Shown piece by piece: positions 50,408 to 64,000 of a DNA stretch of 64,000 nucleotides. Position 1 is the stretch's first letter. The number at the start of each line of letters is the position of its first letter. The notes beneath the pieces were generated by a model. That model was not told the DNA's origin. It saw only the letters and a program-made list of their open reading frames with translations, and did not search any database. Origin of the DNA: a virus; IMG/VR virus record IMGVR_UViG_3300025430_000015, positions 24,644 through 88,643 of that record; one strand, given 5' to 3'. A program made the position numbers and the translations under genes.

Positions 50408-50419
50408 TACATTTCCTTT

Positions 50420-50617: not shown

Positions 50618-50909
50618 TGTTAAATAACTCCTTCATTGCCCATTCTATACGTTCTTTAGCATCCATGCCACCCCACCAGCCTTCGTCTAGGTTGCGCACT
50701 GCTTCGTACCTACATTCCATCATAACAGGACAATCTTTGCATATATTTTTGAGCTTGTGACGTTGGCTTAATGTAGGCATAGAACTAGCATAAATAAAAT
50801 CACTAGTGTTTTTACCATAACAATTGCCTTCTTCTGCCCAAGTAAGGCCTTTATTATCGGGTAAAGTTTGAACTAACTCTTTTAACTTCCACCTACTAAT
50901 CTTACTCAT
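50589..50909 (-). CDS. Second WhiB-like Fe-S transcription regulator
   Basis: 106 aa. Cluster cysteines Cys30, Cys57, Cys60 and Cys66 (GNCYGKN, ICKDCPVMMECRYEA), then EGWWGGMDAKERIEW, which is close to the classic GVWGG turn. It lacks the basic extra module of the first WhiB (13265), so the two likely have different targets. AAGGTAATA before the ATG. Confidence 0.9.
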   Translation of the reverse strand: MSKISRWKLKELVQTLPDNKGLTWAEEGNCYGKNTSDFIYASSMPTLSQRHKLKNICKDCPVMMECRYEAVRNLDEGWWGGMDAKERIEWAMKELFNNDNSIRPTI

Positions 50910-50913
50910 ATTA

Positions 50914-51597
50914 TTACCTTTCTATCGATGATTGATTTATATTTGCTTTCATACCACTATCTATTCCATCATTATATCCTGATGATGCTACAATTTTACG
51001 TTGAGTAGCAGGATGACGATCTAATTTTTGGAAATATTCTTCAATTGCATGTTGTTTATTTCTAACAACTAATGCAACTGATGTATTGTTTGTTTCATTA
51101 ATAACTTTTGTTTTTGATTCTCTTATACGTTCATTGATTGTTATACAATAACCGCCAAAGAAACCTTTAACCCAAGTTTTAGTATGTATTTTTTCTTTGC
51201 TATTCTTTTTAATTTTATTTAGCTTAATAAACATTTCATTGACCATGTCTAAAGATAAAATATTATATAATGTTAAACATAATTCAATATCACTCTTGTA
51301 TCCATAGATCATGCAATATTCTTCGCCTCGTAAAACTTTGCAAAAGTTATGCTTTGCAATTGAATTAAGCAATACACTCTTATCAATAGCATATGGTTTA
51401 GGTGTTTCAATACGTCTAGCAACAATATTTCCTTCACCAATATGATCATGAAGTTGAGCTTCTTCAATTTGATATTTGGTAATTAACTCTTGTGCTAATG
51501 ATTGTGCTGAACTTACTTCACCAGGTTTGTCACTACTATCTGCAACGCGAAGTAGTTTCTGAACCTTAGAAATAATATCAGACAACTGCATAACCAT
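50914..51597 (-). CDS. DUF2786-type protein
   Basis: 227 aa with a very strong AAAGGAGG. The start ISKVQKLLRVADSSDKPGEV followed by SAQSLAQELITKYQIEEAQL is the DUF2786 domain, common in phages, of unknown function. The rest (FFGGYCITINERIRESKTKV and a C-terminal SGYNDGIDSG) fits the longer members. First gene behind hammerhead 1. Confidence 0.75.
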   Translation of the reverse strand: MVMQLSDIISKVQKLLRVADSSDKPGEVSSAQSLAQELITKYQIEEAQLHDHIGEGNIVARRIETPKPYAIDKSVLLNSIAKHNFCKVLRGEEYCMIYGYKSDIELCLTLYNILSLDMVNEMFIKLNKIKKNSKEKIHTKTWVKGFFGGYCITINERIRESKTKVINETNNTSVALVVRNKQHAIEEYFQKLDRHPATQRKIVASSGYNDGIDSGMKANINQSSIER

Positions 51598-51611
51598 AGT
51601 ATTACCTCCTT

Positions 51612-51681
51612 TCTTTTAGTCTAGCCTCATCGGTGTAGAGACAACTACCTTCTACATACGCCTCACGGCGTTTCGGCTTTA
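51612..51681 (-). ncRNA. Hammerhead ribozyme 1 (type II), between 51682 and 50914 genes
   Basis: On the minus strand: stem II AGCC (51678-51675) with GGCT (51626-51623); GAAA at 51674-51671; stem III ACGCC-GTGA-GGCGT; cleavage triplet GTA, predicted cut between 51657 and 51656; stem I TGTAGA/TCTACA; core CCGATGA at 51633-51627 (U4 replaced by C). TAGT in loop I can pair with ACTA downstream (51620-51617). Same strand as the flanking genes. It would split the transcript so that the DUF2786 mRNA starts with stem I. Confidence 0.75.
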
Positions 51682-51924
51682 TTATAAAGCGTCTTTTAAA
51701 TCACAGAATAACTTATGAAAATGATCCATTTGTTCTCCCATTGCATTGATTGCTTTATTAAACATATCTGATAAACTTTCATAAAAAGTGATATCAAGAG
51801 TGTTTTTGTTTTCGTTATAGATTTTAAACCCATTTAACAACTCATCTAAACGATAACCAATCGTAGAAATATTGTTGATAAGTTCGCTTACTTTCTCTAA
51901 CTTTTCTTCATTACTTACTGTCAT
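51682..51924 (-). CDS. Hypothetical helical protein
   Basis: 80 aa. One long helical protein (LEKVSELINNISTIGYRLDE, LSDMFNKAINAMGEQMDHFH). GGTAATATG start context. Unknown. Hammerhead 1 lies directly behind it. Confidence 0.55.
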   Translation of the reverse strand: MTVSNEEKLEKVSELINNISTIGYRLDELLNGFKIYNENKNTLDITFYESLSDMFNKAINAMGEQMDHFHKLFCDLKDAL

Positions 51925-51979
51925 ATTACCTAACTTAAATATTTAATGCAACCAATTTAAAATTAATGTTTCATACTTA

Positions 51980-52156
51980 CTATTTTACCTCCATAGGTTT
52001 ATATTCACTACAATATGTCTCAAACTTGTTTTTACGAGTCCAAGATCCACATTCACGGCATTCTCCAGACTCTAAATCTTCAAATTCTGGATTCTGACTA
52101 ATGTTCCATAAATGTGCTTCATATTCATGATCGCACCAACAATCTGGTTCATTCAT
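51980..52156 (-). CDS. Small zinc-ribbon-like protein
   Basis: 58 aa with AAGGAG seven bases before the ATG. CWCDHEYEAHLWN then GECRECGSWTRKNKF and a late Cys. This CxCxH ... CxxC set resembles one short zinc ribbon. Unknown. Confidence 0.6.
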   Translation of the reverse strand: MNEPDCWCDHEYEAHLWNISQNPEFEDLESGECRECGSWTRKNKFETYCSEYKPMEVK

Positions 52157-52165
52157 ATTTGCTCC

Positions 52166-52372
52166 TTACTTGATATTATCTAATGCATTATTAAGTATTT
52201 CAGTTATTTCTTTTTCTTTATCTCCTGTTTCTGTATTTTGATCAGGAAAAACCCATTCATCAATATTAGGAATGTAAACAGTTTTACCTTTTTCAAATTT
52301 AGCAAAAGTAGTAGGCCAATCTATAAGCCAACCATTTTCTTCTGACCATTTTACTACACAATGATATTCCAT
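52166..52372 (-). CDS. Hypothetical small protein
   Basis: 68 aa. EYHCVVKWSEENGWLIDWPT, then GKTVYIPNIDEWVFPDQNTE and a helical end. Beta-rich. Its start overlaps the previous stop (TAATG). Unknown. Confidence 0.55.
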   Translation of the reverse strand: MEYHCVVKWSEENGWLIDWPTTFAKFEKGKTVYIPNIDEWVFPDQNTETGDKEKEITEILNNALDNIK

Positions 52373-52503
52373 TATGTTTCCATTTCTATAATTATTTCTT
52401 CTAGTTGATTACAACGATCTAATAAATTAGATATAACATCTTTAGCTTCTGCTAATGTAGTTGGTTCTGTTAAACCAAAGTCATTTAATGTTAATTCTAT
52501 CAT
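52372..52503 (-). CDS. Tiny helical protein
   Basis: 43 aa. IELTLNDFGLTEPTTLAEAK followed by NLLDRCNQLEEIIIE: a short coiled coil. One-base overlap with the next gene. Unknown. Confidence 0.45.
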   Translation of the reverse strand: MIELTLNDFGLTEPTTLAEAKDVISNLLDRCNQLEEIIIEMET

Positions 52504-52505
52504 TA

Positions 52506-52643
52506 TTAATTAAATCCATAATGCTCAAAGATTTGAGCTCTAGCATCTTCAAGTTCATTATTGAGGTCTTGCAATGTACGATTATCAATACTCTTATCAT
52601 TACCAAACCAATCAATTAGATCTTGTCTAGTTACTTCATTCAT
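52506..52643 (-). CDS. Tiny helical protein
   Basis: 45 aa with GAAGGAG before the ATG. NEVTRQDLIDWFGNDKSIDN, then a helix LQDLNNELEDARAQIFEHYG. First gene behind hammerhead 2; its leader is a copy of the end of the gene at 52940. Confidence 0.5.
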   Translation of the reverse strand: MNEVTRQDLIDWFGNDKSIDNRTLQDLNNELEDARAQIFEHYGFN

Positions 52644-52697
52644 TTTACTCCTTCTCTCTTATATTTGCTACTATGCGTAATGCTTCTGTTCCTTACT

Positions 52698-52760
52698 ATT
52701 AGCCTATCTTATCAATGCATGGTGGCTAATCCATACAGACGCCTCCCGGCGTTTCGATTC
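52698..52760 (-). ncRNA. Hammerhead ribozyme 2 (type II) with compensated U3-A8 core
   Basis: Minus strand: stem II ATC (52758-52756) with GAT (52708-52706); GAAA at 52755-52752; stem III ACGCC-GGGA-GGCGT with a GNRA loop; cleavage triplet GTC, predicted cut between 52738 and 52737; stem I TGTATGG/CCATGCA (7 bp); core TTGATAA at 52715-52709. Relative to CTGATGA, C3 is U and G8 is A, so the C3-G8 pair becomes U3-A8. Loop I ATTAGCC (52730-52724) pairs perfectly with GGCTAAT (52704-52698), a 7-bp pseudoknot. Confidence 0.8.
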
Positions 52761-52764
52761 TTTA

Positions 52765-52947
52765 CTATTCTATTTCCTCAATAATTATATCATTGATAGT
52801 ATTTTTAATAGCAAATCCATTGTGTTCTAACCATCCCAATGCTTCTTTTTCAATTACATCGTCATCTTCAGAGTCAGATGTAATCGTAGTTATGAGCACA
52901 GCATAGTCAAACACAAACTGTACATTATATATATATGTTTTACTCAT
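52765..52947 (-). CDS. Hypothetical small protein
   Basis: 60 aa. KTYIYNVQFVFDYAVLITTI then EKEALGWLEHNGFAIKNTIN: beta-alpha. Starts inside the previous gene's end, behind GAGAAGGAG. Hammerhead 2 follows its stop after four bases. Unknown. Confidence 0.55.
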   Translation of the reverse strand: MSKTYIYNVQFVFDYAVLITTITSDSEDDDVIEKEALGWLEHNGFAIKNTINDIIIEEIE

Positions 52948-53104
52948 TCTCCTTCTCTCTTATATTTGCTACTATGCGTAATGCTTCTGCAAATCCTTGA
53001 GCAAATCCATTCTCAAAATCAGTTTGCTTAGCCATTGCTAAGTTAATGTGATGACGAGTTTCATTACTCAATTGATAAAAAGATTTGTCTAATTTTTTAC
53101 CCAT
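52940..53104 (-). CDS. Hypothetical small helical protein
   Basis: 54 aa. KLDKSFYQLSNETRHHINLA then FENGFAQGFAEALRIVANIR. AAAGGAATAATA before the ATG. Its 3' end is the source of the 41-bp repeat. Unknown. Confidence 0.5.
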   Translation of the reverse strand: MGKKLDKSFYQLSNETRHHINLAMAKQTDFENGFAQGFAEALRIVANIREKENE

Positions 53105-53106
53105 TA

Positions 53107-53523
53107 TTATTCCTTTGTTGTAACTAAACTATTAAGATAAATAAATACCTCAAAAGGTACTGGCTCTAGTTCCCAATTCCATACAACATCGTCTTCGTTG
53201 TAGTTTTGCCAGTCAACTTTATCATAGTTAACTACCTTAATACCAACAGTTTGGTCAATGTGATTTACAACAACTAACTTCCATGTATCACCATGAAGAG
53301 AAAGTCCGATACCATATCCAGTATCAGACATTACATCATCTTTAATCATTTCACTGAAGATAATACGGTTAAGGTATTCGTCATCACTCCAACGACCCTT
53401 GCCACGTACTATAGCGTCAGCTACAACGTTTTCTAGATGACTAGCTCCCCAATGGGTATATAGATAGATAGAATGCTCTGATCCATATGTACCAATAAGT
53501 TGTACTTGTCCACGGTCTCCCAT
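53107..53523 (-). CDS. Hypothetical phage protein
   Basis: 138 aa. Starts MGDRGQVQLIGTYGSEHSIY then LYTHWGASHLENVVADAI, a pattern I associate with a common phage protein of unknown function. YGIGLSLHGDTWKLVVVNHI near 80-100 is beta-rich. Its leader follows tRNA-like element A and a GNRA hairpin. Confidence 0.6.
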   Translation of the reverse strand: MGDRGQVQLIGTYGSEHSIYLYTHWGASHLENVVADAIVRGKGRWSDDEYLNRIIFSEMIKDDVMSDTGYGIGLSLHGDTWKLVVVNHIDQTVGIKVVNYDKVDWQNYNEDDVVWNWELEPVPFEVFIYLNSLVTTKE

Positions 53524-53560
53524 GATTACCTACTTTCTTACTTGTTTGTTTATTTGTTTA

Positions 53561-53618
53561 ACGTCTCCCGACGTAGTGCCTTGAGTAGGAGTCGAACCTA
53601 CTCTACGACCATCAAGGC
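53561..53618 (-). ncRNA. tRNA-like minihelix A plus GNRA hairpin
   Basis: Minus strand: acceptor GCCTTGA (53618-53612) pairs at all seven positions with TCAAGGC (53584-53578), then A as discriminator. T-arm GTAGG-TTCGACT-CCTAC has a perfect tRNA T-loop. A 10-base linker TGGTCGTAGA replaces the D-arm, anticodon arm and variable region. No CCA follows. Behind it is ACGTC-GGGA-GACGT (53574-53561), a GNRA hairpin, and then an A-rich leader with AAGAAAG. Lies between the genes at 53625 and 53107 in the sense direction. Confidence 0.85.
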
Positions 53619-53624
53619 TACCAT

Positions 53625-54008
53625 TTACCACCAACTATCGTAATATATTTCCATATCTTGTCCAATAGCTTTCATAGCATCATCAATAAACTTAAGGTCA
53701 ATTTCTCTATCTTCTGGTAAACTTTCACCAAAGAAAAAACCTTGAGTTACTGGGAGTTTTTCATGTATTACAGCATGTCTTAAATTAACAAGGTCTTGAA
53801 ATGTTACTCGAACTGGTTGACAGTTAAAAACACCTTCTCCACCTTTACTTTCATATAACTTTTCCATCCAACCTTGAATGTTAGGATGTTTACGCCATTG
53901 AGCAATTAAAAAGACTTTATCTTCAGATTGTTCATGAGTCCAAACATAACTTAAATCTGTATTGTTTGGATGAGGCATAACAGCATATGCATATTGGTCT
54001 AATCCCAT
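53625..54008 (-). CDS. Conserved phage protein of MGLDQYAY type
   Basis: 127 aa. MGLDQYAYAVMPHP, then AQWRKHPNIQGWMEKLYESK, VFNCQPVRVTFQDLVNLRHA, PVTQGFFFGESLPEDREIDL and IYYDSWW match a widespread phage protein, often mislabelled phosphoglycerate kinase, of unknown function. AAAGGAAAC before the ATG, behind tRNA-like element B. Confidence 0.75.
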   Translation of the reverse strand: MGLDQYAYAVMPHPNNTDLSYVWTHEQSEDKVFLIAQWRKHPNIQGWMEKLYESKGGEGVFNCQPVRVTFQDLVNLRHAVIHEKLPVTQGFFFGESLPEDREIDLKFIDDAMKAIGQDMEIYYDSWW

Positions 54009-54044
54009 TATGTTTCCTTTCTTACTTATTTATTTACTTGTTTG

Positions 54045-54099
54045 TGTCTCCCGACAGCACCCCAAGATAGAATCGAACTATCTTACAACCATTTGGGGT
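54045..54099 (-). ncRNA. tRNA-like minihelix B plus GNRA hairpin
   Basis: Minus strand: acceptor ACCCCAA (54099-54093) with TTGGGGT (54065-54059), seven pairs, discriminator G54058. T-arm GATAG-TTCGATT-CTATC. The linker ATGGTTGTAA (10 bases) shares TGGTYGTA with elements A and C. Behind it TGTC-GGGA-GACA (54056-54045), then an A-rich leader ending in AAGAAAGGAAAC. Acceptor and T-stem sequences differ from element A while pairing is kept. Confidence 0.85.
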
Positions 54100-54107
54100 T
54101 ACCTTAG

Positions 54108-54764
54108 TTAGCTAGGCCAACTAATAGGAATTTCTTTACCATTAATAACAATGATTTTAGGTGTTTCCATTGCTTTATCAACAGCTTCAGATACTTCTTT
54201 AATTGTTTCCATCATAATAGATGGCATTGCTGCTAAACGTTGTTTCACCTCAGCTTCAACTGCTTGTTGCATTTCTGCATCAGACATAGTTGGAGCTAAA
54301 AACTCTTCCATAATTGGATCTTCTTCAATAGCATCTTCTGTTGTTACTGCTGCAGAAGTTGTTGCAGAAGGAACAGAAGTTTTATTTATATAACTTCCGT
54401 TAATAATATAATATGGATAAAGTAAGGATTTCTTACCAGGAGCACCTTCATTTAACGATATAGACAACATCTTAGTAAGGAATTCTTCACGACCAGCTTC
54501 TTTGCTTGTGTGTTTAGAATTCACATCTTTGATGTAATCTTCAATTACAGCTTTAGCTGCTTTGTGATCAGTAAAGTAGAATCTACCAATTACACGACGA
54601 GCACGAGCATCTTCTGAATTGTACCACGTACAACGTACAAATACTTCAGAATAATAATCTCCGTGTTCTTTGTGTACAGTAAATGCTAGGTCTACAACAT
54701 CACGAGTACGGTTGGAAGTCCAACCAGCACCATTAGCTTTAGCTACCCAAGTCATTTCTGACAT
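54108..54764 (-). CDS. Hypothetical protein
   Basis: 218 aa. N-terminal domain with WVAKANGAGWTSNRTRDVVD and VFVRCTWYNSEDARARRVIG, then a flexible Ser/Thr/Ala/Glu stretch and a coiled-coil end (EIPI after METIKEVSEAVDKAMETPK). Unknown. Behind hammerhead 3, with GTGAGATAAT leader. Confidence 0.6.
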   Translation of the reverse strand: MSEMTWVAKANGAGWTSNRTRDVVDLAFTVHKEHGDYYSEVFVRCTWYNSEDARARRVIGRFYFTDHKAAKAVIEDYIKDVNSKHTSKEAGREEFLTKMLSISLNEGAPGKKSLLYPYYIINGSYINKTSVPSATTSAAVTTEDAIEEDPIMEEFLAPTMSDAEMQQAVEAEVKQRLAAMPSIMMETIKEVSEAVDKAMETPKIIVINGKEIPISWPS

Positions 54765-54790
54765 ATTATCTCACTTTCTTTTTCTTACTA

Positions 54791-54854
54791 TTGACCTATC
54801 TCATCAGTGCATGGAGGTCATCCCATACATACCCCTCCCGGGGTTATCGACTAA
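54791..54854 (-). ncRNA. Hammerhead ribozyme 3 (type II), GAUAA variant
   Basis: Minus strand: stem II GTC (54851-54849) with GAT (54800-54798); core half GATAA at 54848-54844, one U more than GAAA; stem III ACCCC-GGGA-GGGGT; triplet GTA, predicted cut between 54830 and 54829; stem I TGTATGG/CCATGCA; core CTGATGA at 54807-54801 intact. Loop I TGACCT (54820-54815) pairs perfectly with AGGTCA (54797-54792). Lies between the genes at 54855 and 54108. Confidence 0.75.
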
Positions 54855-55013
54855 TTAATCGATTGACTGCAATGGTACACCAAAATAGTCATTAAGACCT
54901 TCTTGTACACCACAAGGTGAACAAATATCAGTCTTGTTATCAACCCTAGACAAAGCAGGATATCCTGTCCAAGATTCTTTACAAAGTGGACATATAAATG
55001 TTTTTACTGTCAT
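54855..55013 (-). CDS. Small zinc-ribbon protein
   Basis: 52 aa, ATGA overlap with the upstream stop. FICPLCKESWTGYPAL and DICSPCGVQEGLND give two CxxC knuckles, a full four-Cys zinc ribbon. Hammerhead 3 starts right after its stop. Confidence 0.6.
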   Translation of the reverse strand: MTVKTFICPLCKESWTGYPALSRVDNKTDICSPCGVQEGLNDYFGVPLQSID

Positions 55014-55210
55014 GATTTTTCTATCATCCCTTCAGGCATTTTACAATAGCCATTTTCTATTAAATCCATAGCCATACGACCATAGTGTCCTTGTAGTTTC
55101 CAAGCCATACCATTGTCAATTAACTCTTGAAAAAGTTGGATAATTTCATTACCATCAAGTTCATCTTGTTCATAACTTATTATTTTATTTGTTAAATCAT
55201 TAATAATCAT
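55010..55210 (-). CDS. Hypothetical small helical protein
   Basis: 66 aa. IINDLTNKIISYEQDELDGN then QELIDNGMAWKLQGHYGRMA with EIIQLFQELIDNG. This matches a short phage protein of unknown function with the W-LQGHYGR-A motif. One-base overlap with the previous gene. Confidence 0.6.
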   Translation of the reverse strand: MIINDLTNKIISYEQDELDGNEIIQLFQELIDNGMAWKLQGHYGRMAMDLIENGYCKMPEGMIEKS

Positions 55211-55599
55211 TATTTATCTTCTTCAAGTTGCCAATTAAATTTATCATCTTGTACTTGATTTAATTCATCATACAATGATTGAGCCATTTTTGCATGTTCT
55301 TCAGGCGTAGAAGGTACTTGTGACCTAAAATCAACACCAAATACAACGCCTACGTTACTAGCAAATGTAATAAGGTTTTGTAAAACCTCAGTACCTGCTT
55401 TAACAGCTTGGTCAAATGTATGTTTGAAGTCATCTGACTCTACATAACTATTAAACTCTGAAGGAAGTTCACCAGTTACATATTGACGATAAGCTTCAAT
55501 GGTTGTCTGAATTGTGATTTGCATTTTAATACACATCATCAAATTATCAACTTCATTTTTAATGAGTTGTAATTTTAATTCATCTGACATGTTGTCCAT
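55210..55599 (-). CDS. Hypothetical helical protein
   Basis: 129 aa, helical (DELKLQLIKNEVDNLMMCIK, TFDQAVKAGTEVLQNLITFA). Leader behind hammerhead 4 has AAGAAAGAGAG. Unknown. Confidence 0.55.
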   Translation of the reverse strand: MDNMSDELKLQLIKNEVDNLMMCIKMQITIQTTIEAYRQYVTGELPSEFNSYVESDDFKHTFDQAVKAGTEVLQNLITFASNVGVVFGVDFRSQVPSTPEEHAKMAQSLYDELNQVQDDKFNWQLEEDK

Positions 55600-55627
55600 C
55601 TTACTCTCTTTCTTGTTTAACTATTAT

Positions 55628-55691
55628 CTGACTTGTCTCATCAGTACCCAAGTTGTCATCTTAGGTATACCCCTCACGGGGTTATCGACTA
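55628..55691 (-). ncRNA. Hammerhead ribozyme 4 (type II), overlapping a stop codon
   Basis: Minus strand: stem II GTC (55689-55687) with GAC (55637-55635); GATAA at 55686-55682 as in hammerhead 3; stem III ACCCC-GTGA-GGGGT; triplet GTA, predicted cut between 55668 and 55667; stem I TACCTAAG/CTTGGGTA (8 bp, one G-T); core CTGATGA at 55644-55638 intact. Loop I TGAC (55658-55655) pairs with GTCA (55632-55629). The G of stem II is the last base of the TAG stop of the upstream gene. Confidence 0.8.
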
Positions 55692-56087
55692 ACGATAATG
55701 TCTATATATTTTTGTATCATAAGATTCATCAAAATCTGGTTGTTCAGGAGATGGTGCTCCTTGCCATTCAGATAAAGTCTTAAGAAACCATGTTTCTGCT
55801 GCTGCATCATCTTTACCATAAAAAACATAGCATAATGTTAACACAGCATCAACTGCTTCTTTAGCTATCCAACTACTTGTAAACTCCCTGGTCAAAAGTA
55901 TTTCTTTCTTTTTTGTACCAGGAATAGGACGCATTACTTGTAATATAGCATTATGATTCATAAGATTACTTTGTACGCCTGCTTTTAATGATAAATATAA
56001 ATTAACATTAGTTCTATAATAAACAGTAGTCTTACAATTCCATGATACTTCATCACGAGAACGACGCCAATTAACTTGTCTTGACAT
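55689..56087 (-). CDS. Hypothetical protein
   Basis: 132 aa. RQVNWRRSRDEVSWNCKTTV, then beta-rich VYYRTNVNLYLSLKAGVQSN and a helical DAVLTLCYVFYGKDDAAAET. AAGGAAGAAC before the ATG. Its stop codon is part of hammerhead 4. Unknown. Confidence 0.55.
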   Translation of the reverse strand: MSRQVNWRRSRDEVSWNCKTTVYYRTNVNLYLSLKAGVQSNLMNHNAILQVMRPIPGTKKKEILLTREFTSSWIAKEAVDAVLTLCYVFYGKDDAAAETWFLKTLSEWQGAPSPEQPDFDESYDTKIYRHYR

Positions 56088-56105
56088 GTTCTTCCTTTAT
56101 TTTAA

Positions 56106-56339
56106 TTATAACCAATTGCTAAAATCTTTTAATAATTGATGTATTTCTCCAGTTGTATAACCATCTTCAATGTTATTAACTTCTTCACCGTTAACGTTAT
56201 ATATACCTGAATCTAAATTCCCTGCTAGTTTCTTTAATAAATCAAGAAACAATTCTTGAAATTTAGGAAGTTGGTCTGGAGTATCGAATGATATTTCGAT
56301 CTTCATCTTGTTTCCTTGTTGCTCACCGCTTACTCTCAT
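56106..56339 (-). CDS. Hypothetical small protein
   Basis: 77 aa from the ATG at 56339, which overlaps the upstream stop and has GAGGAGG four bases before. An inner ATG at 56306 with AAGGAAAC is an alternative. Core MKIEISFDTPDQLPKFQELF, then LDLLKKLAGN. Unknown. Confidence 0.55.
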   Translation of the reverse strand: MRVSGEQQGNKMKIEISFDTPDQLPKFQELFLDLLKKLAGNLDSGIYNVNGEEVNNIEDGYTTGEIHQLLKDFSNWL

Positions 56340-56677
56340 AATTCCTCCTCATGGTTATTACTGCATTCACAATCTGATGCGTGAAAAGATTTATCACTAA
56401 ATTCTTCTCCAAATAAATACTTAGCATGCTTTTGAATAATCTTAAGAAGAGTTGCCATGTTAATGTTTACAATCTCTGATATGCTTTTGATTGATTCACC
56501 AACAATTGGTATTTTATCTTCATCAACTTCATGCCAATGCTCAACCGCACCATGTAACCACATAGTAGGTTCACCCATATCCATGAATAGTGTCTTAATT
56601 TCACCTATCATATTACCATAGTTGATTCTGTCACTAGTTTCATGGTCTAAGGCAGCAGTGAATTGCTGTTCATCCAT
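56336..56677 (-). CDS. Hypothetical protein
   Basis: 113 aa with AAGGAG seven bases before the ATG. Contains DRINYGNMIGEIKTLFMDMG, MWLHGAVEHWHEVDEDKIPI and a Cys/His-containing end (HASDCECSNNHEEEL). Unknown. First gene behind the 570-base non-coding segment. Confidence 0.55.
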   Translation of the reverse strand: MDEQQFTAALDHETSDRINYGNMIGEIKTLFMDMGEPTMWLHGAVEHWHEVDEDKIPIVGESIKSISEIVNINMATLLKIIQKHAKYLFGEEFSDKSFHASDCECSNNHEEEL

Positions 56678-56699
56678 AATTACTCCTTACTTGTTTTGT

Positions 56700-57240
56700 T
56701 TGTTTAAGTGGGCATTTTAACGTCATACCCAGGACGGAGAGTTACAAAAGCTCACTCACAAGGCTAGTGGTTACCTTCACACCACTCAGGTCGTTGGCTC
56801 ACCTATACCACCAACAGGTCGCTAATTAAGGTTTAGACTGACCTCCATGAGCTTCCCCTCATGATGAGTATGTAGTACGATACAAGCGTGTGGGTGCGTT
56901 TGAGTCTGCACCACAATTAGACTCGGTCCCATATAACCGATAAAAGTTATATGGGATTGCCACGTTTTTTGGGTCAGTGACCTAGACCTCATAGTGTGTT
57001 GTTAAGGATGTTACTTCCTACCTAAGCTTCCCCTTTAGGCTGGGTTTGTGAATACAAGACTTGCAACTAGGCACTCTGGATTAATACAACATCCAATCTG
57101 GCGGGTTGACATAGCTGGCATCACAGATCAATAAAGCCCCCTGGCCTATCCAGAAGGGCTATGGAGATGCAACAACAAGAAGGAAAAGCACTCTCCATAA
57201 CCCATCTCAATAGGCTATGTAGAGACTTCATTCTTGTTAA
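56700..57240 (-). ncRNA. Large structured non-coding segment, ncRNA candidate
   Basis: The 56678-57249 gap has no supportable gene but many helices on the operon strand: a 12-bp stem (57156-57167 with 57192-57203, one G-T), a GC hairpin followed by TTTATT (57135-57160, terminator-like), an 11-bp perfect stem (56927-56937 with 56946-56956), and GAGTCT/AGACTC beside it. Two hairpins, at 57021-57039 and 56846-56863, have different 5-bp stems but the same loop GGGGAAGC. It ends in a normal AAGGAG leader. It may be a large phage ncRNA of the ornate type (GOLLD/ROOL-like in size), which I cannot confirm. Confidence 0.6.
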
Positions 57241-57249
57241 TAATTGATA

Positions 57250-57549
57250 TTAAAGAATCTCTTCTGCCGAGGCAATAATCTTCTTTAATTCACTTGGAAA
57301 ATATACTCCGTTATTCTCAAGAGATATTTGAAGCTCTTTAAGAATATCAACAAAATTACGAATCATCTCAATTAAGAGATTACGTTGCATTTCCAGTGAT
57401 TCAGCCTTTTCATTGTAAAGGCCAACCAATTTATTAACCTTACCAAAAGTCTCAACTAGTTTCAATGCACGATTGCGCATTGCTTCAAGGTCTTCACTTT
57501 CAGTAAACTTGTCACGAATATTCTGCAACTGTTCTTCTGTTACTATCAT
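57250..57549 (-). CDS. Hypothetical coiled-coil protein
   Basis: 99 aa from the ATG at 57549; the frame is open to a GTG at 57576, but the ATG has the standard ACAAGTAAGAAAG leader. Helical: EEQLQNIRDKFTESEDLEAM, RALKLVETFGKVNKLVGLYN, EMIRNFVDILKELQISLENN. Unknown. Confidence 0.6.
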   Translation of the reverse strand: MIVTEEQLQNIRDKFTESEDLEAMRNRALKLVETFGKVNKLVGLYNEKAESLEMQRNLLIEMIRNFVDILKELQISLENNGVYFPSELKKIIASAEEIL

Positions 57550-57616
57550 TTTATTTACTTTCTTACTTGTAGCCACACTTAATGGTAGTGACCTTCACCA
57601 TGGGTAAAACAATTTA

Positions 57617-57991
57617 CTATTCACTATCTTTTGGCATGTAATGATCTTGATGGCCACAACGACCTTCGTTTTCATCACATAAAGGGTGGTGTTGATCATG
57701 AAGCATGAATGGTGCACCAAGAACTTTAACAGCTTCTTTTTGCATTTCTTCATAAAACTCATTTAACTGATTAATTGCAAGCCCAAGCCCAAGTGGGAAT
57801 ACTTTTGTAATAAGATTTAAGTCATCTTCTGACCTATCCTCATCTAATAGCATTGCTGCAATTTTAGTAAATGGTTCCATGATTGTACCCATCTCAACGC
57901 CCCAATCTTTAATACGATTGAGGTAATCAGCATGAGCAATACGTGCCTCTGCTGCTTCGTCAAGTGTTAGGTCGAGATCAAACTCTTCCAT
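57617..57991 (-). CDS. Hypothetical protein
   Basis: 124 aa with AAAGGAG. Helical (DLDLTLDEAAEARIAHADYL, MEPFTKIAAMLLDEDRSEDD), with a Cys/His-rich end HDQHHPLCDENEGRCGHQDH that may bind metal. Unknown. Confidence 0.6.
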   Translation of the reverse strand: MEEFDLDLTLDEAAEARIAHADYLNRIKDWGVEMGTIMEPFTKIAAMLLDEDRSEDDLNLITKVFPLGLGLAINQLNEFYEEMQKEAVKVLGAPFMLHDQHHPLCDENEGRCGHQDHYMPKDSE

Positions 57992-58126
57992 ATTACTCCT
58001 TTTATTGCTTACTTACAGGACCAATTACGGCCCACTGCATACCAAATAGTATGCATGGCACCTGAGGGTCGCTTGATAGACCCCCAGGTCTCTGAGTTTA
58101 TATAACGTTACTCAGGGAACGCGTGA
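57992..58126 (-). other. Gap with four successive hairpins
   Basis: On the minus strand: CTGAGT/ACTCAG; ACCTGGGGGTC/GACCCTCAGGT (11 bp, one G-T) with loop TATCAAGC; TGCATAC/GTATGCA; and GGGCC/GGTCC, then the AAAGGAG leader. No hammerhead core or T-loop seen. Same place in the operon logic as the ribozyme and minihelix gaps. Confidence 0.6.
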
Positions 58127-59623
58127 TTAAGACTTGCCAAGCAAAGCAGAACGAATAGGACCGGCAGGCTTATTAATAAGCTTACCTTTCTTAAACATTG
58201 ATACTGCTTCTTCAACACTAGGAATCATAATGATCTTGTGTTTCTTGACGAGTTTAGCACACTGAATGATTATTTGATCATTCTGTCCACTACCCATAGA
58301 TGTAACTTGGCCGTCACTGACCCAGACAATGTCTTCGCCATGCTTACGACGACGAATTGCCCACGTCAATGCAGTACCGTCAACACCATTGTTCATACCA
58401 CCGATGTCACCGGTGTCTCGAACACGCCAACCACGATCAGCGAGTAGCCAAGCGTTGGGGCTGTCGCCACCACAATCACTATATGCCATAATGACTGCGG
58501 CAGGAGCTGCCTCAACAATCTCTTCGATGTCTGACTGTTTCAAATTCATAGAACCTGATATGTCAATAACAACGATGCCACCCTTAACTTTGATTTTCTG
58601 TCCAAAGATCCTACGTTCTGGATCTGTAAGCAGACGTGATGGGTAAGAGACACGACGACCTGATTGCATACCACGCTTTTTACGGCGCATATAACCTTTA
58701 ACCTCAACGGTTAGTGGCTTGTCATCAGCCCAGACTAACTTACCAAATTCGCCATTGTCATAGTCAAATTCGAAATCATCTGGCATATCATCAGTGTTGA
58801 GTGTAACAGGTTGATCACCAAGTGTATTCTTGTCAGGATCAAACTTATCAGGATCACCATAGTTAGCTGCACGCTGCTCTTCTTTCTTGCTGTGTATATC
58901 CTTAATGTCTTTAGGGGCTTTGTACCCAGAAGACACATAGTCAGCAATATCAGAAGCAGCATACAGAGTGTGACGAAAACCAGTTGGGATATTAAAATTA
59001 CTGTTAAACCTTACTGGAATGGTATCACCTAACTCAGATGCTGTGCCATTGAAATTGGTTTTCATTGACTTATTGAGTTGACGCAGTCGTTGACTCCATT
59101 CAGGTCTAACGGAACGAATTCCGCTAGCAAAAGAGTCGAAACTCTTAGTGCTATGATTCTGAACAGTGAATTGAACTGCTGCATCCCAAGATCGCATATC
59201 ACCAGCTGTAGCCAACCGCTTACCAAAAGTCTTTTCAGCTCCGGTAGGCTCGTGATCCAACTGCTTGACTTTAGCAAACTGTTCTGTAATCGCATTGATG
59301 CGAGCTTGCTCAGCAACACGTAATACATCGGCTGTAATACCGTTGTTATTGTATGCTTTAGCAATACCAGAATAGATTGATGAGTCAAGAGGAGTAACAC
59401 GAGCTTCGATAAGCTTCTCAAGCTGTAGACGCTGTGAATGGCTATCCCCCGAAAGAGGAATAGCCATTATACCAGCAATGAAGTCTACTTTAGCTCCGAA
59501 GTCACCGACAGTTGGAACAATTTCCCAATTGATTGGATCCTTAACATCCTCACGGAATGAAGTAATAACGTTTGGTAACGGCATTACTTCATCTTCAAGG
59601 TAGCTTGGAGTCACTTCACTCAT
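58127..59623 (-). CDS. VWA-domain protein, MoxR partner
   Basis: 498 aa. The C-terminal von Willebrand A domain has the metal site GGIVVIDISGSMN (Asp354, Ser, Ser), then GVDGTALTWAIRRR (Thr) and DIVWVSDGQVTSMG (Asp). The N-terminal 300 residues are mostly helical with a charged linker (KKEEQRAANYGDPDKFDPDK). It overlaps the MoxR-like gene by four bases. MoxR-VWA pairs act together as chaperone or metal-insertase systems in bacteria, so this is probably such a pair with a phage-specific client. Confidence 0.85.
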   Translation of the reverse strand: MSEVTPSYLEDEVMPLPNVITSFREDVKDPINWEIVPTVGDFGAKVDFIAGIMAIPLSGDSHSQRLQLEKLIEARVTPLDSSIYSGIAKAYNNNGITADVLRVAEQARINAITEQFAKVKQLDHEPTGAEKTFGKRLATAGDMRSWDAAVQFTVQNHSTKSFDSFASGIRSVRPEWSQRLRQLNKSMKTNFNGTASELGDTIPVRFNSNFNIPTGFRHTLYAASDIADYVSSGYKAPKDIKDIHSKKEEQRAANYGDPDKFDPDKNTLGDQPVTLNTDDMPDDFEFDYDNGEFGKLVWADDKPLTVEVKGYMRRKKRGMQSGRRVSYPSRLLTDPERRIFGQKIKVKGGIVVIDISGSMNLKQSDIEEIVEAAPAAVIMAYSDCGGDSPNAWLLADRGWRVRDTGDIGGMNNGVDGTALTWAIRRRKHGEDIVWVSDGQVTSMGSGQNDQIIIQCAKLVKKHKIIMIPSVEEAVSMFKKGKLINKPAGPIRSALLGKS

Positions 59624-60381
59624 GATAGTGTGAACTCAGGAGTGAGTGTACCAATCTTGAGAGCATCGATGATTGGATCAGCCATTTTGCCGAACACCAT
59701 ACGAGCTGCACGCTCTACGCCAAAGCCAGGAGCAGAACGAAGCTGCTCGAAAGCCTTGAATGAACGTAGAGAAGCACGTTGGCCAGGTCGGCCTGCAACA
59801 ATAACTGCTGCAAGCTGACGCAATTCCACAGGCAATGCTGCGATCAAAGCTGCTGGATGAGCAGCATCAATCTTGATTGCAATTGGGAATCTGTCCTTAA
59901 GTGCAGTTGGCAACTCGTCCATGTCTTCCAAGTTAGTGGTCATCACAGCCGAGAACCCTGGATTTGGAGTAAACAACTCTCCAGTGTAGGGGTGCTTGAA
60001 TGATGATGATTCAACACTGTCTAGGAATGCAAGCAAAGTTGACTGTACGTCACCACCAGCTTTGTCGATCTCGTCAACAACGAGTCGAGCACCAGTAGTA
60101 CCATTGCCGATCCAGGAGCGTAATGCAGCACCTGGGACAAAGGTGAATCCACCAACCTCGTTAGGCATAACTGAACCTGATACGTCAGCATTTGTCATAT
60201 CCTCTGAGCAGATAAGACGCTCGGAGCCAGCTTCATTGATGCCGAAGTTGAGGCCAGAGTATGTCTTACCAGTGCCTGGAGGGCCGTAAAGGATGACACG
60301 GTCTACACCGGCCGCCAGCACGTCCTCCAAGTCCTTGTAGCATTGAGGGACAGGGATGCCTTGGTATGTTGCTTCACTCAT
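59620..60381 (-). CDS. MoxR-like AAA+ ATPase
   Basis: 253 aa. Walker A LYGPPGTGKT with Lys39, Walker B LVVDEIDKAG with Asp103-Glu104, sensor I AVMTTNLEDMDELP, arginine-finger region LKDRFPI, then a lid domain. Small for the MoxR group, but all ATPase residues are present. It forms an operon with the VWA protein. Its leader follows tRNA-like element E. Confidence 0.85.
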   Translation of the reverse strand: MSEATYQGIPVPQCYKDLEDVLAAGVDRVILYGPPGTGKTYSGLNFGINEAGSERLICSEDMTNADVSGSVMPNEVGGFTFVPGAALRSWIGNGTTGARLVVDEIDKAGGDVQSTLLAFLDSVESSSFKHPYTGELFTPNPGFSAVMTTNLEDMDELPTALKDRFPIAIKIDAAHPAALIAALPVELRQLAAVIVAGRPGQRASLRSFKAFEQLRSAPGFGVERAARMVFGKMADPIIDALKIGTLTPEFTLS

Positions 60382-60404
60382 GATTTACTTACTTTCTTCT
60401 TGTT

Positions 60405-60504
60405 TATTTTAGTTTGTAGTGCTTCCTTAGCACCAGGGCAGTCACTTATGTGACTCCGGCACTGCAGGTGGGAATCGAACCCACAACATCCTCCATGCTG
60501 CAGT
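60405..60504 (-). ncRNA. tRNA-like minihelix E plus two hairpins
   Basis: Minus strand: acceptor ACTGCAG (60504-60498) with CTGCAGT (60467-60461), seven pairs, discriminator G60460 followed by CCG. T-arm GTGGG-TTCGATT-CCCAC. The linker CATGGAGGATGTT has 13 bases. Behind it AGTCAC-ATAA-GTGACT and then GTGCT-AAGGA-AGCAC, then an A-rich leader with AAGAAGAAAG. Upstream a CCCT/AGGG hairpin (60505-60526 region) follows the stop of the previous gene. Confidence 0.8.
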
Positions 60505-60526
60505 CCCCCTTATTTAGGGAAATATA

Positions 60527-61000
60527 CTACTTTATTGCATGTACAGTCATTTTGCCATTGTGACGGTCAAAGTTAACTTTAACTTTCTTGTAACCCTTGA
60601 CTCGTGCCTCTTTACGCAATTTAGTTTCAATTGCTTGAGCATTCATCTGATGGATAGGCAAGATAGCAGCTAATTCCTTATAACCAATAACATGACTATT
60701 TCCATCAAGGATTTCGTCAAGCCACCAATTCAATTCAGACCATTTAATTATTACTGATGGTTTTGTATAAGGACGACGCAATGATTTGCTACGTGCATTC
60801 ATTGAATTAACCTTAGTTGGCGGTTTAGCTTTGGTAGCTACGGCTGCTGTTCCCTTACTTGCAGGTTTAACAGAACTATCAAATGATTCAATCAATTCGA
60901 TAACCTGAATAACTTGACTTCGGGTAGCAGGACGCCCAAGAACTGTGTCAGTTAACTCTAACGCAGTCTTGATCACCTGGCTCATCTTACTGTTGGACAT
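60527..61000 (-). CDS. Hypothetical DNA-binding-like protein
   Basis: 157 aa, Ala/Lys-rich middle (KPASKGTAAVATKAKPPTKV) and a C-terminal domain WSELNWWLDEILDGNSHVIG, ELAAILPIHQMNAQAIETKL and KGYKKVKVNFDRHNG. Basic overall. Possibly a nucleoid-like or regulatory protein; no firm family. AAGGAGG before the ATG. Confidence 0.55.
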   Translation of the reverse strand: MSNSKMSQVIKTALELTDTVLGRPATRSQVIQVIELIESFDSSVKPASKGTAAVATKAKPPTKVNSMNARSKSLRRPYTKPSVIIKWSELNWWLDEILDGNSHVIGYKELAAILPIHQMNAQAIETKLRKEARVKGYKKVKVNFDRHNGKMTVHAIK

Positions 61001-61033
61001 TATGTCCTCCTTCTTTGTTTGTTGTTTTTGTTG

Positions 61034-61089
61034 TGCCTCCCGGCAGCACCCCAGGCAAGAGTCGAACTTACCTTACGACCATCGGGGAT
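61034..61089 (-). ncRNA. tRNA-like minihelix C plus GNRA hairpin
   Basis: Minus strand: acceptor part CCCCG (61087-61083) with TGGGG (61053-61049); ends less perfect than A, B and E. T-arm GGTAAG-TTCGACT-CTTGCC (6 bp, one G-T). Linker contains ATGGTCGTAA, as in A and B. Behind it TGCC-GGGA-GGCA (61045-61034), then an A/C-rich leader. Between the genes at 61096 and 60527. Confidence 0.75.
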
Positions 61090-61095
61090 ACCGTA

Positions 61096-61623
61096 TTACT
61101 TACATATCTTCAAATCTGGACCCCATTCGGGAACCAAACTGTGATTACGTTGGTAATACCAGACAGCCACAAGTGATTGTTGATCACCAGTTGCTGCCTG
61201 TGGTGTAGCAGGCAATCCATGTATGTACCCTCTAGCATAATTCCATATGGATGGAATAAACTGATACCAACCAGCCGCCTTAGTGTGTATCTCAACACTA
61301 GTTAAGTGGTTTCTAGACTCATGGTATCGAATACAGGCAAACTGTGCTTGTATATGGATAGGCAATTGTCTTGTTGGATCAGTTGCAGAAGGCCATGCGG
61401 CTGTTACATCTGTGGACATTGTATTCCATTGCATCAGAGCAGGAACCTCGTGCTTAACCACAATTGGCATGGTTTTCTCATACCAGTGCAGATTAGCCTT
61501 AGTTACTGTCTGAACCTGATGTGGAAGCGCGGGCGGGCGTGCAGCAAATACTTGCCCCGAAATTCCTAAACTTCCCATCAATAGCAATGAAGTACATATA
61601 CACAGCTTACGCAGTGTTTCCAT
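61096..61623 (-). CDS. Secreted transglycosylase/Rpf-like protein
   Basis: 175 aa. Signal peptide (KLCICTSLLLMGSLGISGQV, then FAARPPAL). Catalytic domain: FACIRYHESRNHLTS with Glu in the lytic-transglycosylase position, then HTKAAGWYQFIPSIWNYARG and TGDQQSLVAVWYYQRN. AAGGAGCAAG leader. Family knowledge: such enzymes cut glycan chains of peptidoglycan. Second such protein in the window (see 12504). Confidence 0.75.
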   Translation of the reverse strand: METLRKLCICTSLLLMGSLGISGQVFAARPPALPHQVQTVTKANLHWYEKTMPIVVKHEVPALMQWNTMSTDVTAAWPSATDPTRQLPIHIQAQFACIRYHESRNHLTSVEIHTKAAGWYQFIPSIWNYARGYIHGLPATPQAATGDQQSLVAVWYYQRNHSLVPEWGPDLKICK

Positions 61624-61722
61624 GTACCTTGCTCCTTTCTTATTTGGAGTGATTCTTACTAACTTCTTTATTAATCACCCCATCGGCCCCCTCCCCTCAT
61701 CGGGAGGAGACCTGTGCAATGA
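61624..61722 (-). other. Gap with nested hairpin
   Basis: On the minus strand TTAATCA, beginning in the stop region of the upstream gene, pairs with TGATTAA and encloses CCTCCC-GATGAG-GGGAGG. It contains GATGA but no GAAA, so it is not a recognisable hammerhead. A normal AAAGGAG leader follows. Confidence 0.5.
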
Positions 61723-62124
61723 TTAAAACTGGCTTACACCATCACGCTCTGGATTGTACAAATCAATATGCTGATTCTGTACAAGATGGAAGAAAGAGTT
61801 CGCGATCTTATGTTCCGTACAGCTATTAACTGACTGGAACGGACCGTGCTTAACCTCTGAACGGATCACTTTCTTAGTGTCCTGAAACAGAGATTTTGCG
61901 GTGACCTCTTTCAACCTGGGAGTACTAGATATAAGTTGCCAGACACCCGCGGGGGAGACTTCCATCTTAACCACCGCAAAGGTATCTGACAAATCAAAAC
62001 AACCAACGTGTATATGATGACGGCCAAAGTACTCCAGCCACTCATCAAAGACATAGCCCAAAGGACTATCTTCTACACGTACTTGATTGTACTTCCAGCA
62101 CGCGCTGTGAAGTGTCATTAGCAT
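61723..62124 (-). CDS. Hypothetical protein
   Basis: 133 aa. Two Mets at its start (62124, 62118). WKYNQVRVEDSPLGYVFDEW, HIHVGCFDLSDTFAVVKMEV, RLKEVTAKSLFQDTKKVIRS. Alpha/beta, unknown. Next to the parS-like segment; AAGTAAGGTAG before the ATG. Confidence 0.55.
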   Translation of the reverse strand: MLMTLHSACWKYNQVRVEDSPLGYVFDEWLEYFGRHHIHVGCFDLSDTFAVVKMEVSPAGVWQLISSTPRLKEVTAKSLFQDTKKVIRSEVKHGPFQSVNSCTEHKIANSFFHLVQNQHIDLYNPERDGVSQF

Positions 62125-62518
62125 AACACTACCTTACTTTCTTGTTATTTACTTAGCTTGCATACCCCCAAGCCAGGGAAGGATATATCTGTACTCCCGT
62201 ACATAGATAACCCTGTAGCCACCACCATACCTTTATATGATGATGACTACACAGCCACCTATAAACTGCATGTATACCTAAGGTATCCACACCACTTTAC
62301 ACCACATCGCTCCACATCAAACCACTATGCTCCATATGAGTACCATTATAGTGGTAAAGAGAGTGCCTTAGATATGTGTAAACATGTCTCAAAATATGCC
62401 CATTTTTATAATATATAGGAAATAAACGGCCACATAGCATAATAAGCTATTACCTTACTATGATCCGATCTTATGCCCTAAGTAAATAAGCTATTATATG
62501 TATATCGGATCGATATAA

Positions 62519-62534
62519 TGTTCCACGTGGAACA
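62519..62534. promoter_or_regulatory. parS-like palindrome 1
   Basis: TGTTCCACGTGGAACA, a perfect 16-bp palindrome. It matches the bacterial parS consensus TGTTTCACGTGAAACA except for one symmetric T-to-C/A-to-G change. Chromosomal ParB binds such sites and spreads from them. Confidence 0.7.
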
Positions 62535-62618
62535 TACTGACTAACATATGCGGAGATCCAATACACCCGTATATTATTTCCTTACTAGGGTATTAGCTTA
62601 TTAGCATAATAGCCTATA

Positions 62619-62634
62619 CGTTCCACGTGAAACA
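62619..62634. promoter_or_regulatory. parS-like site 2
   Basis: CGTTCCACGTGAAACA matches TGTTNCACGTGAAACA at every position except the first. It starts exactly 100 bp from site 1 and 14 bases from the end of the gene at 62648. Confidence 0.7.
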
Positions 62635-62647
62635 TATCGAACTTGAA

Positions 62648-62956
62648 TTAGAAGCTTAGCTCTATTCCATCCAGAGCCCACTCTGATACTAATGGGCATA
62701 TGGTATAGGTAAGTTTGATGGGCTTAGATGAGTAGTTTGTTTCCCCGACGACATGCGCGGAGATAGTATCTTCCTCATCATTAATAACCCACTTGGTAGG
62801 TGCTATACCATAGAACTCAGTCATACTAATGACTGCCATTTCCACGGATGGAAAACTATCTTGTATAACACCACACCTGGTCTTAGCCTTATGGACAATC
62901 CTATCCCATAGAGTAGGCCGGTCAATCCAAGTTATCACAAATCGCTCTTCGATCAT
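62648..62956 (-). CDS. Hypothetical protein
   Basis: 102 aa. FVITWIDRPTLWDRIVHKAK, SFPSVEMAVISMTEFYGIAP, then a beta-rich end. GAGAAAGGAATATAATC before the ATG, behind tRNA-like element D. Unknown. Confidence 0.55.
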   Translation of the reverse strand: MIEERFVITWIDRPTLWDRIVHKAKTRCGVIQDSFPSVEMAVISMTEFYGIAPTKWVINDEEDTISAHVVGETNYSSKPIKLTYTICPLVSEWALDGIELSF

Positions 62957-63003
62957 GATTATATTCCTTTCTCTTACTTATATTTAGTTTCCCCATAAGG
63001 GAG

Positions 63004-63049
63004 CACCTCGGAGGGGAATCGAACCCCTCCAAGCCCACCAGGGCGAGGT
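63004..63049 (-). ncRNA. tRNA-like minihelix D
   Basis: Minus strand: acceptor ACCTCG (63049-63044) with CGAGGT (63010-63005), discriminator G63004. T-arm GGAGGGG-TTCGATT-CCCCTCC (up to 7 bp, the outer pairs compete with the acceptor). The linker CCCTGGTGGGCTT contains a tiny CCC-TGGT-GGG hairpin. Behind it TCCC/GGGA hairpin and AGAGAAAGG leader. Between the genes at 63070 and 62648. Confidence 0.75.
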
Positions 63050-63069
63050 TACCTACTACTTACAACCTA

Positions 63070-63837
63070 TTACAGGTTGTTCTTGATGCTCTTGAATGTC
63101 TCAAGGAATAGCATCTGCTGGAACAGCTTCTTCTGGTCCTCAGCCATCTCTTCCACAGTCTCCTGTGAGAGCTTGTTGAGTGCTTCAGAGTACGTGTTGA
63201 TAACACCGCTGGCCTGAACGTGGTTCAGAACGGTGTCGTACACTACAGGTGAACCGAGAGCGATTGCACGGTTCTTGGTAGCACCTGTCTCTGGAAGCAT
63301 GTAGAACTTCTGCTGTGCCAGATCCTTAACGTACAGCTTGATGCGTAGCTCAGCACCGTTCAGCTTCTCGTACTGCTCAATTGCAGTTACGATGCCACTG
63401 GTTACGTACTGGCGCTGACGCAGCACCTCGTAGTACTGACGACCCTTCTTGTCCGTCAACAGTCCAGAGTTGATAATGAACTGTGTACGGGAACGGTTGT
63501 ACTTACCCGAGTACGCCATAGATGGAGTAACGATGTCGCTTGGCTCGATGCGAGTAGCAACTTCTACAAGCTTACGACCGTACTCGAGGTTCTGGTTAGT
63601 GAACACATCGAATACACGTCCCATGCTGTAGTCGTTGTCTTGCTTAGCCATGCTGATAGCGTTGCCAGCAATCTGGTCGTAGGTGAATCCACCCAAGATC
63701 AGATACTGAACAGCGTCCACCAACATCGTGTGCTCTGCTGACGACTCCACTGATGTGTCAACGAAGGCTGCACGTAATACTTCTTGTGCCTCCTCTGCTG
63801 TCATTGATACAGTGTTGGATACATTGAATTCTGACAT
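63070..63837 (-). CDS. Hypothetical helical protein
   Basis: 255 aa. Long helical N-terminal half (TAEEAQEVLRAAFVDTSVES, LVDAVQYLILGGFTYDQIAG), then RIKLYVKDLAQQKFYMLPET and a helical end. GAAGGAAGAC before the ATG. No family recognised. Codon use is richer in C-ending codons than its small neighbours, which suggests high expression. Confidence 0.6.
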   Translation of the reverse strand: MSEFNVSNTVSMTAEEAQEVLRAAFVDTSVESSAEHTMLVDAVQYLILGGFTYDQIAGNAISMAKQDNDYSMGRVFDVFTNQNLEYGRKLVEVATRIEPSDIVTPSMAYSGKYNRSRTQFIINSGLLTDKKGRQYYEVLRQRQYVTSGIVTAIEQYEKLNGAELRIKLYVKDLAQQKFYMLPETGATKNRAIALGSPVVYDTVLNHVQASGVINTYSEALNKLSQETVEEMAEDQKKLFQQMLFLETFKSIKNNL

Positions 63838-64000
63838 ATTGTCTTCCTTCTTTTCTTATTTATTTGTTTCCTCAGTTCCGCTGAGTTACCGGTACTGCTG
63901 TTACTCCTGCATCCCTGCAGTGGTAACGTCCCTAGGTCAGATTTGACCCTGACCCTCCGTTGGACTGGAGTCTAGGTGGATAGCCTAGATAGGGTAACCC
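63838..64000 (-). other. Gap at right edge with cloverleaf-like fold and GNRA hairpin
   Basis: On the minus strand CCCTA (63994-63990) pairs with TAGGG (63934-63930) and encloses three hairpins: CTAGG/CCTAG, CTCC/GGAG and GGTCAG/CTGACC. This is a four-way junction like a tRNA, but without GG in the D-loop, a proper T-loop or CCA. Behind it CTGCA-GGGA-TGCAG (a GNRA loop again) and CTCAG/CTGAG, then the leader. Confidence 0.45.

Follow-up and report, generated by a model that had tools for sequence, protein, structure and literature searches.

We analysed a 64,000-nucleotide (nt) stretch of virus DNA (the window), the right-hand portion of a virus record of 88.6 kb (IMG/VR record IMGVR_UViG_3300025430_000015). 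Between the genes of one minus-strand block, the window contains five tRNA-like minihelices, built of an acceptor stem and a T-arm only, and four candidate type II hammerhead ribozymes. In related phages, the two kinds of elements replace each other in front of the same genes. On the basis of their structure, placement and interchange, the minihelices are probably cutting marks, at which a polycistronic phage transcript would be cleaved. We also consider it likely that this phage lineage uses an exchangeable set of such marks, in which a hammerhead, an anticodon-less cloverleaf or the smallest natural substrate of tRNA enzymes each stands in front of a 5' hairpin, and host tRNA maturation would serve as a general message cutter.

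Structure, placement and relatives of the minihelices

All five minihelices (Table 1) show the same order of parts. In the 5' to 3' direction, an acceptor strand is followed by a linker of 10–14 nt, a T-stem, a TTCGAYT loop and a paired 3' strand. The 3' strand past the T-loop is 12 nt long and fully paired in every element, and is split as 7+5 (in three), 6+6 or 5+7. The 12-base-pair (bp) acceptor/T stack with a T-loop that characterizes RNase P and RNase Z substrates is thus present in all of them, and an anticodon arm with a 7-nt loop, expected in a decoding tRNA, in none. On the 3' side each minihelix continues with a purine, a C and then a short hairpin. The upstream stop codon lies 6–22 nt before the minihelix in four cases (by coordinates, 6 nt in the fifth), and the start codon of the following gene, which has the same orientation, is 47–79 nt past its end.

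The elements had been proposed in a first-pass annotation, made from the sequence alone, and were retrieved at the proposed sites on the minus strand; the proposed starts, one base lower, correspond to the discriminator base. The T-loops (TTCGATT in three elements, TTCGACT in two) and the motif TGGTYGTA in three of the five linkers agree with that description. The linker is short as proposed, but its suggested upper bound of 13 nt is exceeded in minihelix 1.

Table 1. Minihelices, adjoining hairpins and candidate hammerheads in the window. R1 is the covariance model described in the text; aa, amino acids; ORF, open reading frame.
Feature	Position	Strand	Structure	Discriminator base	Gene downstream	Search result
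Minihelix 1	63005..63049	-	6+6 bp, 14-nt linker	63004	102-aa gene	R1 (from other phages), E 0.01
Hairpin after minihelix 1	62990..63003	-	predicted fold; would start the downstream message after cleavage			
Minihelix 2	61048..61089	-	5+7 bp, 11-nt linker	61047	157-aa gene	missed by R1
Hairpin after minihelix 2	61034..61046	-	predicted fold, GGGA loop			
Minihelix 3	60461..60504	-	7+5 bp, 13-nt linker	60460	AAA ATPase gene	R1, E 1.3e-3
Hairpin after minihelix 3	60433..60459	-	predicted fold			
Minihelix 4	54059..54099	-	7+5 bp, 10-nt linker	54058	127-aa gene	R1, E 3.3e-6
Hairpin after minihelix 4	54045..54057	-	predicted fold, GGGA loop			
Minihelix 5	53578..53618	-	7+5 bp, 10-nt linker	53577	138-aa gene	missed by R1
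Hairpin after minihelix 5	53561..53576	-	predicted fold, GGGA loop			
Type II hammerhead	55635..55689	-	GAUAA for GAAA		129-aa gene	descriptor; conserved in G002
Type II hammerhead	54798..54851	-	GAUAA for GAAA		218-aa gene	descriptor; RF02276, 24 bits (gathering 37)
Type II hammerhead	52706..52758	-	core UUGAUAA (U3-A8)		45-aa ORF	descriptor; same in G002
Type II hammerhead	51623..51678	-	core CCGAUGA (C at position 4)		227-aa gene	wider descriptor

The five minihelices are real and not a product of chance. A strict descriptor allowing no mismatches finds five in the window, whereas 200 dinucleotide shuffles yield 0.025 on average and 1 at most. Applied to 21 records or parts of records, it gives matches in 12 in the forward direction and none in reversed sequence; the single match in record G014, with a 4-nt linker, is probably accidental. 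When one mismatch is tolerated, 45 matches are obtained, ordinary tRNAs included, vs. 2 in reversed sequence. Standard tools do not call these elements: ARAGORN and Rfam at gathering score each report in the window a single ordinary tRNA-Arg (17254, plus strand) and none of the five minihelices. Below gathering score, the Rfam tRNA model touches one of them (60460–60504, 23.9 bits, E 0.29), and the MALAT1 mascRNA model (RF01684) matches 60461–60504 weakly, at chance level (E 2.3). A covariance model (R1), built exclusively from 11 elements of other phages and searched in 1.49 Mb, recovered minihelices 1, 3 and 4 and missed 2 and 5 at E<=1.

Related sequences are about a dozen records of uncultured phages, all fragments, reached through proteins of the block and a sequence pattern, and the order of genes in the block is the same among them. 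The 116-kb record G001 is the same phage as the window (99.9–100% identity). Near-copies occur in the pairs G000/G001 and G007/G023, and G000 and G023 were left out when distinct elements were counted; G020–G022 are three near-identical records. Among the matches listed, the terminase of the window phage is closest to large phages of Rhodococcus, Gordonia and Mycobacterium (38–44% identity), and its DnaE-like polymerase is 34–35% identical to those of large phages of the same genera, wherefore the host is likely an actinobacterium. The minus-strand block (50129–63837) comprises some 20–30 small genes according to mechanical ORF calls, with the AAA ATPase gene in its middle. Neither megablast with 52500–64000 nor tblastn with the AAA and 255-aa proteins matched anything in the phage collection; for the 138-aa protein, weak matches exist in 39 records, mostly Streptomyces phages, with 33–35% identity among the 20 listed.

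Altogether, about 26 distinct minihelices were found in the related uncultured phages: 23, three of them nearly identical, two more in G026 and one in G006 with a mismatched end pair. A start codon follows 36–79 nt downstream in 23 of 24 elements, and the next ORF is on the same strand as the minihelix in all examined elements. Several minihelices overlap short mechanical ORFs, mostly antisense ones. Among 23 distinct elements, the discriminator is always a purine, the base after it is C in 22, and the one after C is mostly T. In all 23, a hairpin begins at base 1–4 of the presumed RNase Z product.

Of the pair cells in the 11 elements from other phages, 98.5% are formed, and the proportion falls to 49–54% when partners are slid by one column. 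Both sides have changed in nine of the 12 pairs (26 cells vs. 7.6 in shuffles), while the number of pair types does not exceed shuffles. Since these rows were chosen for pairing, the pairing count is not independent; MAFFT alignments A1 and A3, in which the 5' acceptor is not aligned, were left out of the counts. A search for T-stem and T-loop that ignores the acceptor showed a 12-bp acceptor in 67 of 78 arms located in gaps (ordinary tRNAs included), compared to 2 of 10 within genes. We also considered whether a GG in the linker mimics a D-loop docking on the T-loop. GG is present in all 23 linkers, but shuffled G-rich linkers contain it in 87% of cases; with a product of 0.034 over related sequences, D-loop mimicry may be retained as a possibility only.

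A search for a T-loop with a following hairpin matched eight viral contigs at nine places; seven of these contigs were already in the set, and the eighth is a new relative. Bacterial genomes gave a single match, in which the descriptor finds no minihelix. On nine cultured actinobacterial phages, R1 has six matches with E<=0.1 in four genomes. Four of them lie inside annotated tRNAs and two are partial T-arm matches. The strict descriptor gave no element in phages E3 or Finch.

Different elements at the same gene borders

The four candidate hammerheads of the window (Table 1) have type II architecture, with looped stems I and III, a short stem II and an NUH cut site, and all are changed in the core relative to the reference CUGANGA/GAAA. 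No descriptor match was obtained in 120 shuffles of the window. With a score cut, the descriptor, applied to 20 records or parts of records, found 14 hammerheads, and reversed sequence gave none; its first version had given one match in the reversed control and one poor match in G003. The Rfam model RF02276, run on 24 records, matches at E<=0.1 in eight: seven of the 12 records of the group, none of the three records of the more distant loci L191–L193 and one of nine cultured phages (Rhodococcus phage E3, E 0.034). Its gathering score is exceeded only in G026 and G008, and one of 14 control genomes gives a match, below that score. Core positions 3 and 8 are known to covary to U3, and the U4C variant is less active (PMC3088659; this and other PMC papers are cited for individual passages).

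The interchange is most direct in front of the 218-aa gene, where G001 and G002 have a hammerhead, and G007 and G008 a minihelix. The 218-aa proteins are 29–31% identical across carriers of the two kinds (E 4e-27 or better), and the neighbouring 129-, 127- and 138-aa genes follow in the same order in the compared records. Variant hammerheads were recognized by eye in this gap in G006, G021 and G022, and in G003 and G004 just a stem-loop with pseudoknot letters remains. In these two records, a stem-loop of this kind, resembling the 3' product of a hammerhead and devoid of the catalytic core, precedes both the 129-aa and the 218-aa gene; the 5' pseudoknot may be useful in itself.

In front of the AAA gene, the window and G002 carry minihelices of different sequence, and their AAA proteins are 92% identical. 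Six records (G003–G008) instead have a cloverleaf with a D-arm and a loop of 3–5 nt in the position of the anticodon loop. A smaller form is found in G020–G022, three-armed by eye, while the predicted fold differs. G026 has a hammerhead here, and its AAA gene keeps both neighbours, the 175-aa gene on one side and, on the other, the gene located after AAA in the window. G007 has a second cloverleaf (111452–111520, plus strand), in which a 4-nt loop replaces the anticodon loop and which ARAGORN reports as a tRNA of unknown kind.

Conservation of T-loop and acceptor pairing was observed in front of the 138-aa gene, where nine of 11 records with this gene, the window phage included, have a minihelix. 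This outcome favours the first-pass annotation, which a loss of both features in relatives would have refuted. Eight were found by the descriptor and the one in G006 by eye, with one mismatched pair, and their letters are mostly different. The minihelix is absent from this gap in G003 and G004. It is also lacking in L191–L193, which speaks against the idea that the elements are kept. In L191 and L193, the sequence upstream of the 138-aa homologue contains TTGACA and TGCTATAAT, perhaps the gene's own promoter, although their spacing is 22 nt.

The gap before the 227-aa gene holds a hammerhead in G001, G003, G007, G008 and G026 and, by eye, in G002 and G006. In the automatic table of gaps many cells read “none”. 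Some gaps contain long, nearly perfect hairpins, with neither minihelix nor hammerhead, as in the window at 61624–61722 and 62125–62300 (minus strand) and before the 157-aa gene of G003, G004, G007 and G008. These resemble RNase III substrates and are perhaps a third way of cutting. In addition, about 570 nt of the window (56678–57249, minus strand) have no convincing gene and a strong predicted fold (-183 kcal/mol, computed with no shuffle control).

Proposed cutting in front of genes and alternative explanations

Hammerheads cut their own RNA, and tRNA-like elements take their place; the simplest common task is therefore cutting before a gene, and the exchange at the same borders suggests one function for both. 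RNase Z accepts acceptor/T-arm minihelices. RNase P measures its substrate by the acceptor/T-arm, for which the D-loop is dispensable and the T-loop or a similar loop is needed (PMC4919913), and a 12-bp stacked helix of acceptor and T-stem is an efficient substrate, whose 3' RCC is bound (PMC11221534). In the transcript, host RNase P would cut at the 5' side of a minihelix and RNase Z after the discriminator base, freeing a minihelix of 42–46 nt and releasing the upstream message. The downstream message would then start with a hairpin at most 4 bases from its new 5' end, which might slow its decay. A hammerhead would need no enzyme for the cut, and its stem I would form the 5' hairpin. In this way, the phage could set stability and dosage separately for neighbouring genes that are transcribed together.

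Several observations weigh against cutting marks. In the acceptor ends, only purine-C follows instead of CCA. RNase P favours U before the 5' end; this signal received no support, as the preceding base is mostly A (13 A, 6 G, 3 T and 1 C in 23 distinct elements). All four hammerheads of the window depart from the standard core and may be weak for that reason. The G026 AAA protein is 45% identical and forms a long branch in the tree, which makes the interchange at this gap less direct than that before the 218-aa gene. No strict short-linker minihelix was found by the descriptor in G003, G004 and G005, and neither kind of element precedes the 133-, 175-, 124-, 113- and 132-aa genes in any record. 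Finally, in a survey of 80 AAA loci, two of which had too little sequence, 68 of 78 gaps, mostly in more distant relatives, contain neither element according to the descriptor. The AAA gene thus needs no such element, whose presence characterizes one lineage rather than the gene.

It is highly improbable that the elements are functionless decaying tRNA genes, or fragments of attachment (att) sites, which lost the D and anticodon arms. The cloverleafs in AAA gaps of relatives, set against the minihelix in the window, do resemble a loss of arms, and integration commonly leaves fragments of tRNA genes in prokaryotic genomes (PMC9897764). However, acceptor strands and T-stems stay paired despite sequence change (in rows picked for pairing), the paired total is constant at 12, place and orientation are constant, and G002 has a new sequence at the AAA gap although the AAA proteins are nearly the same. 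Hammerheads occupy the same positions elsewhere, and the five window sequences all differ, at odds with an att-site fragment of a host tRNA. Use in preference to decay, asserted in the first-pass annotation, is thus strengthened by elements kept in the gaps of relatives and by the interchange with hammerheads, which had escaped it.

The following hairpin, the fixed placement before genes and the replacement by hammerheads would be left unexplained if free minihelix RNAs had a trans role, such as that of decoys for host nucleases attacking tRNA or its tail. Such a role has a remote chance of being correct: an excised minihelix would bear a tRNA-like acceptor, and a bacterial immune system is described that attacks tRNA tails (PMC12851939). 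Intrinsic terminators or other plain hairpins, suggested by stable hairpins in gaps, have a practically negligible one, given that the 3' strand is followed by purine-C and a second hairpin and not by a T-run, and that conserved T-loop letters are not expected in terminators. A terminator scan listed none of the five and showed no excess (8 vs. 7.1 in shuffles). Protein-binding tRNA-like leaders exist, and the tRNA elbow is recognized by many proteins (PMC4810234), so the elements might be sites at which an aminoacyl-tRNA synthetase, EF-Tu or a phage protein regulates translation of the next gene without cutting. We regard this as very unlikely, because the elements end 36–79 nt before the start codon and leave the ribosome site uncovered, and because the interchange with hammerheads would require a separate explanation.

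Comparison with known systems

In mitochondria, intergenic tRNAs punctuate transcripts and are excised by RNase P and RNase Z, releasing messages. This punctuation employs full functional tRNAs, unlike the phage elements, which lack an anticodon and in most cases a D-arm and are followed by a 5' hairpin. Ordinary tRNA genes alternate with small protein genes in Streptomyces phage Karimac (MH590599.1, 91–104 kb; locus L194), with one annotated as tRNA-OTHER; this alternation is possibly an earlier stage of tRNA punctuation. MALAT1 mascRNA, likewise small and tRNA-like, marks a site cut by RNase P and RNase Z, but it is eukaryotic and forms a single 3' end, that of one long RNA.

To our knowledge, the known non-tRNA substrates of RNase P are single cases, in contrast to many copies of one design found here in one gene block and kept across phages. 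In bacteria they include tmRNA, 4.5S RNA, the phage M3 and C4 RNAs and some polycistronic mRNAs (PMC11143913). Like the minihelices, they are tRNA-like or hairpin structures, and some are phage-borne or positioned within operons (PMC11143913). Laboratory minihelices of acceptor and T-stem have the same 12-bp stack, sufficient for RNase P; those were designed, while the phage ones are genomic and have a T-loop and a linker (PMC11221534). RNase P substrates known from the laboratory seem to be used here repeatedly as natural signals. No description of intergenic minihelices in phages was found in the literature searched, which covered few subscription journals or preprints.

A close counterpart was described by Perreault et al. 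2011 (PMC3088659), who found type II hammerheads clustered in prophages, flanking single genes or short blocks, and suggested that long phage transcripts are cut into mRNAs of operon or gene length. Type II architecture and a loop I pseudoknot with the bases after stem II are shared with the window hammerheads; the cited passages hold nothing on tRNA-like elements in the same role or on interchange, and the window minihelices, unlike hammerheads, are not self-cutting. Transcript processing was no more than a suggestion in the 2011 paper, and the exchange with minihelices makes the role of phage hammerheads directly testable. If the proposed reading as cutting marks is true, the virus employs the tRNA maturation of its host to cut mRNAs in general, a compact means of splitting bacterial operons.

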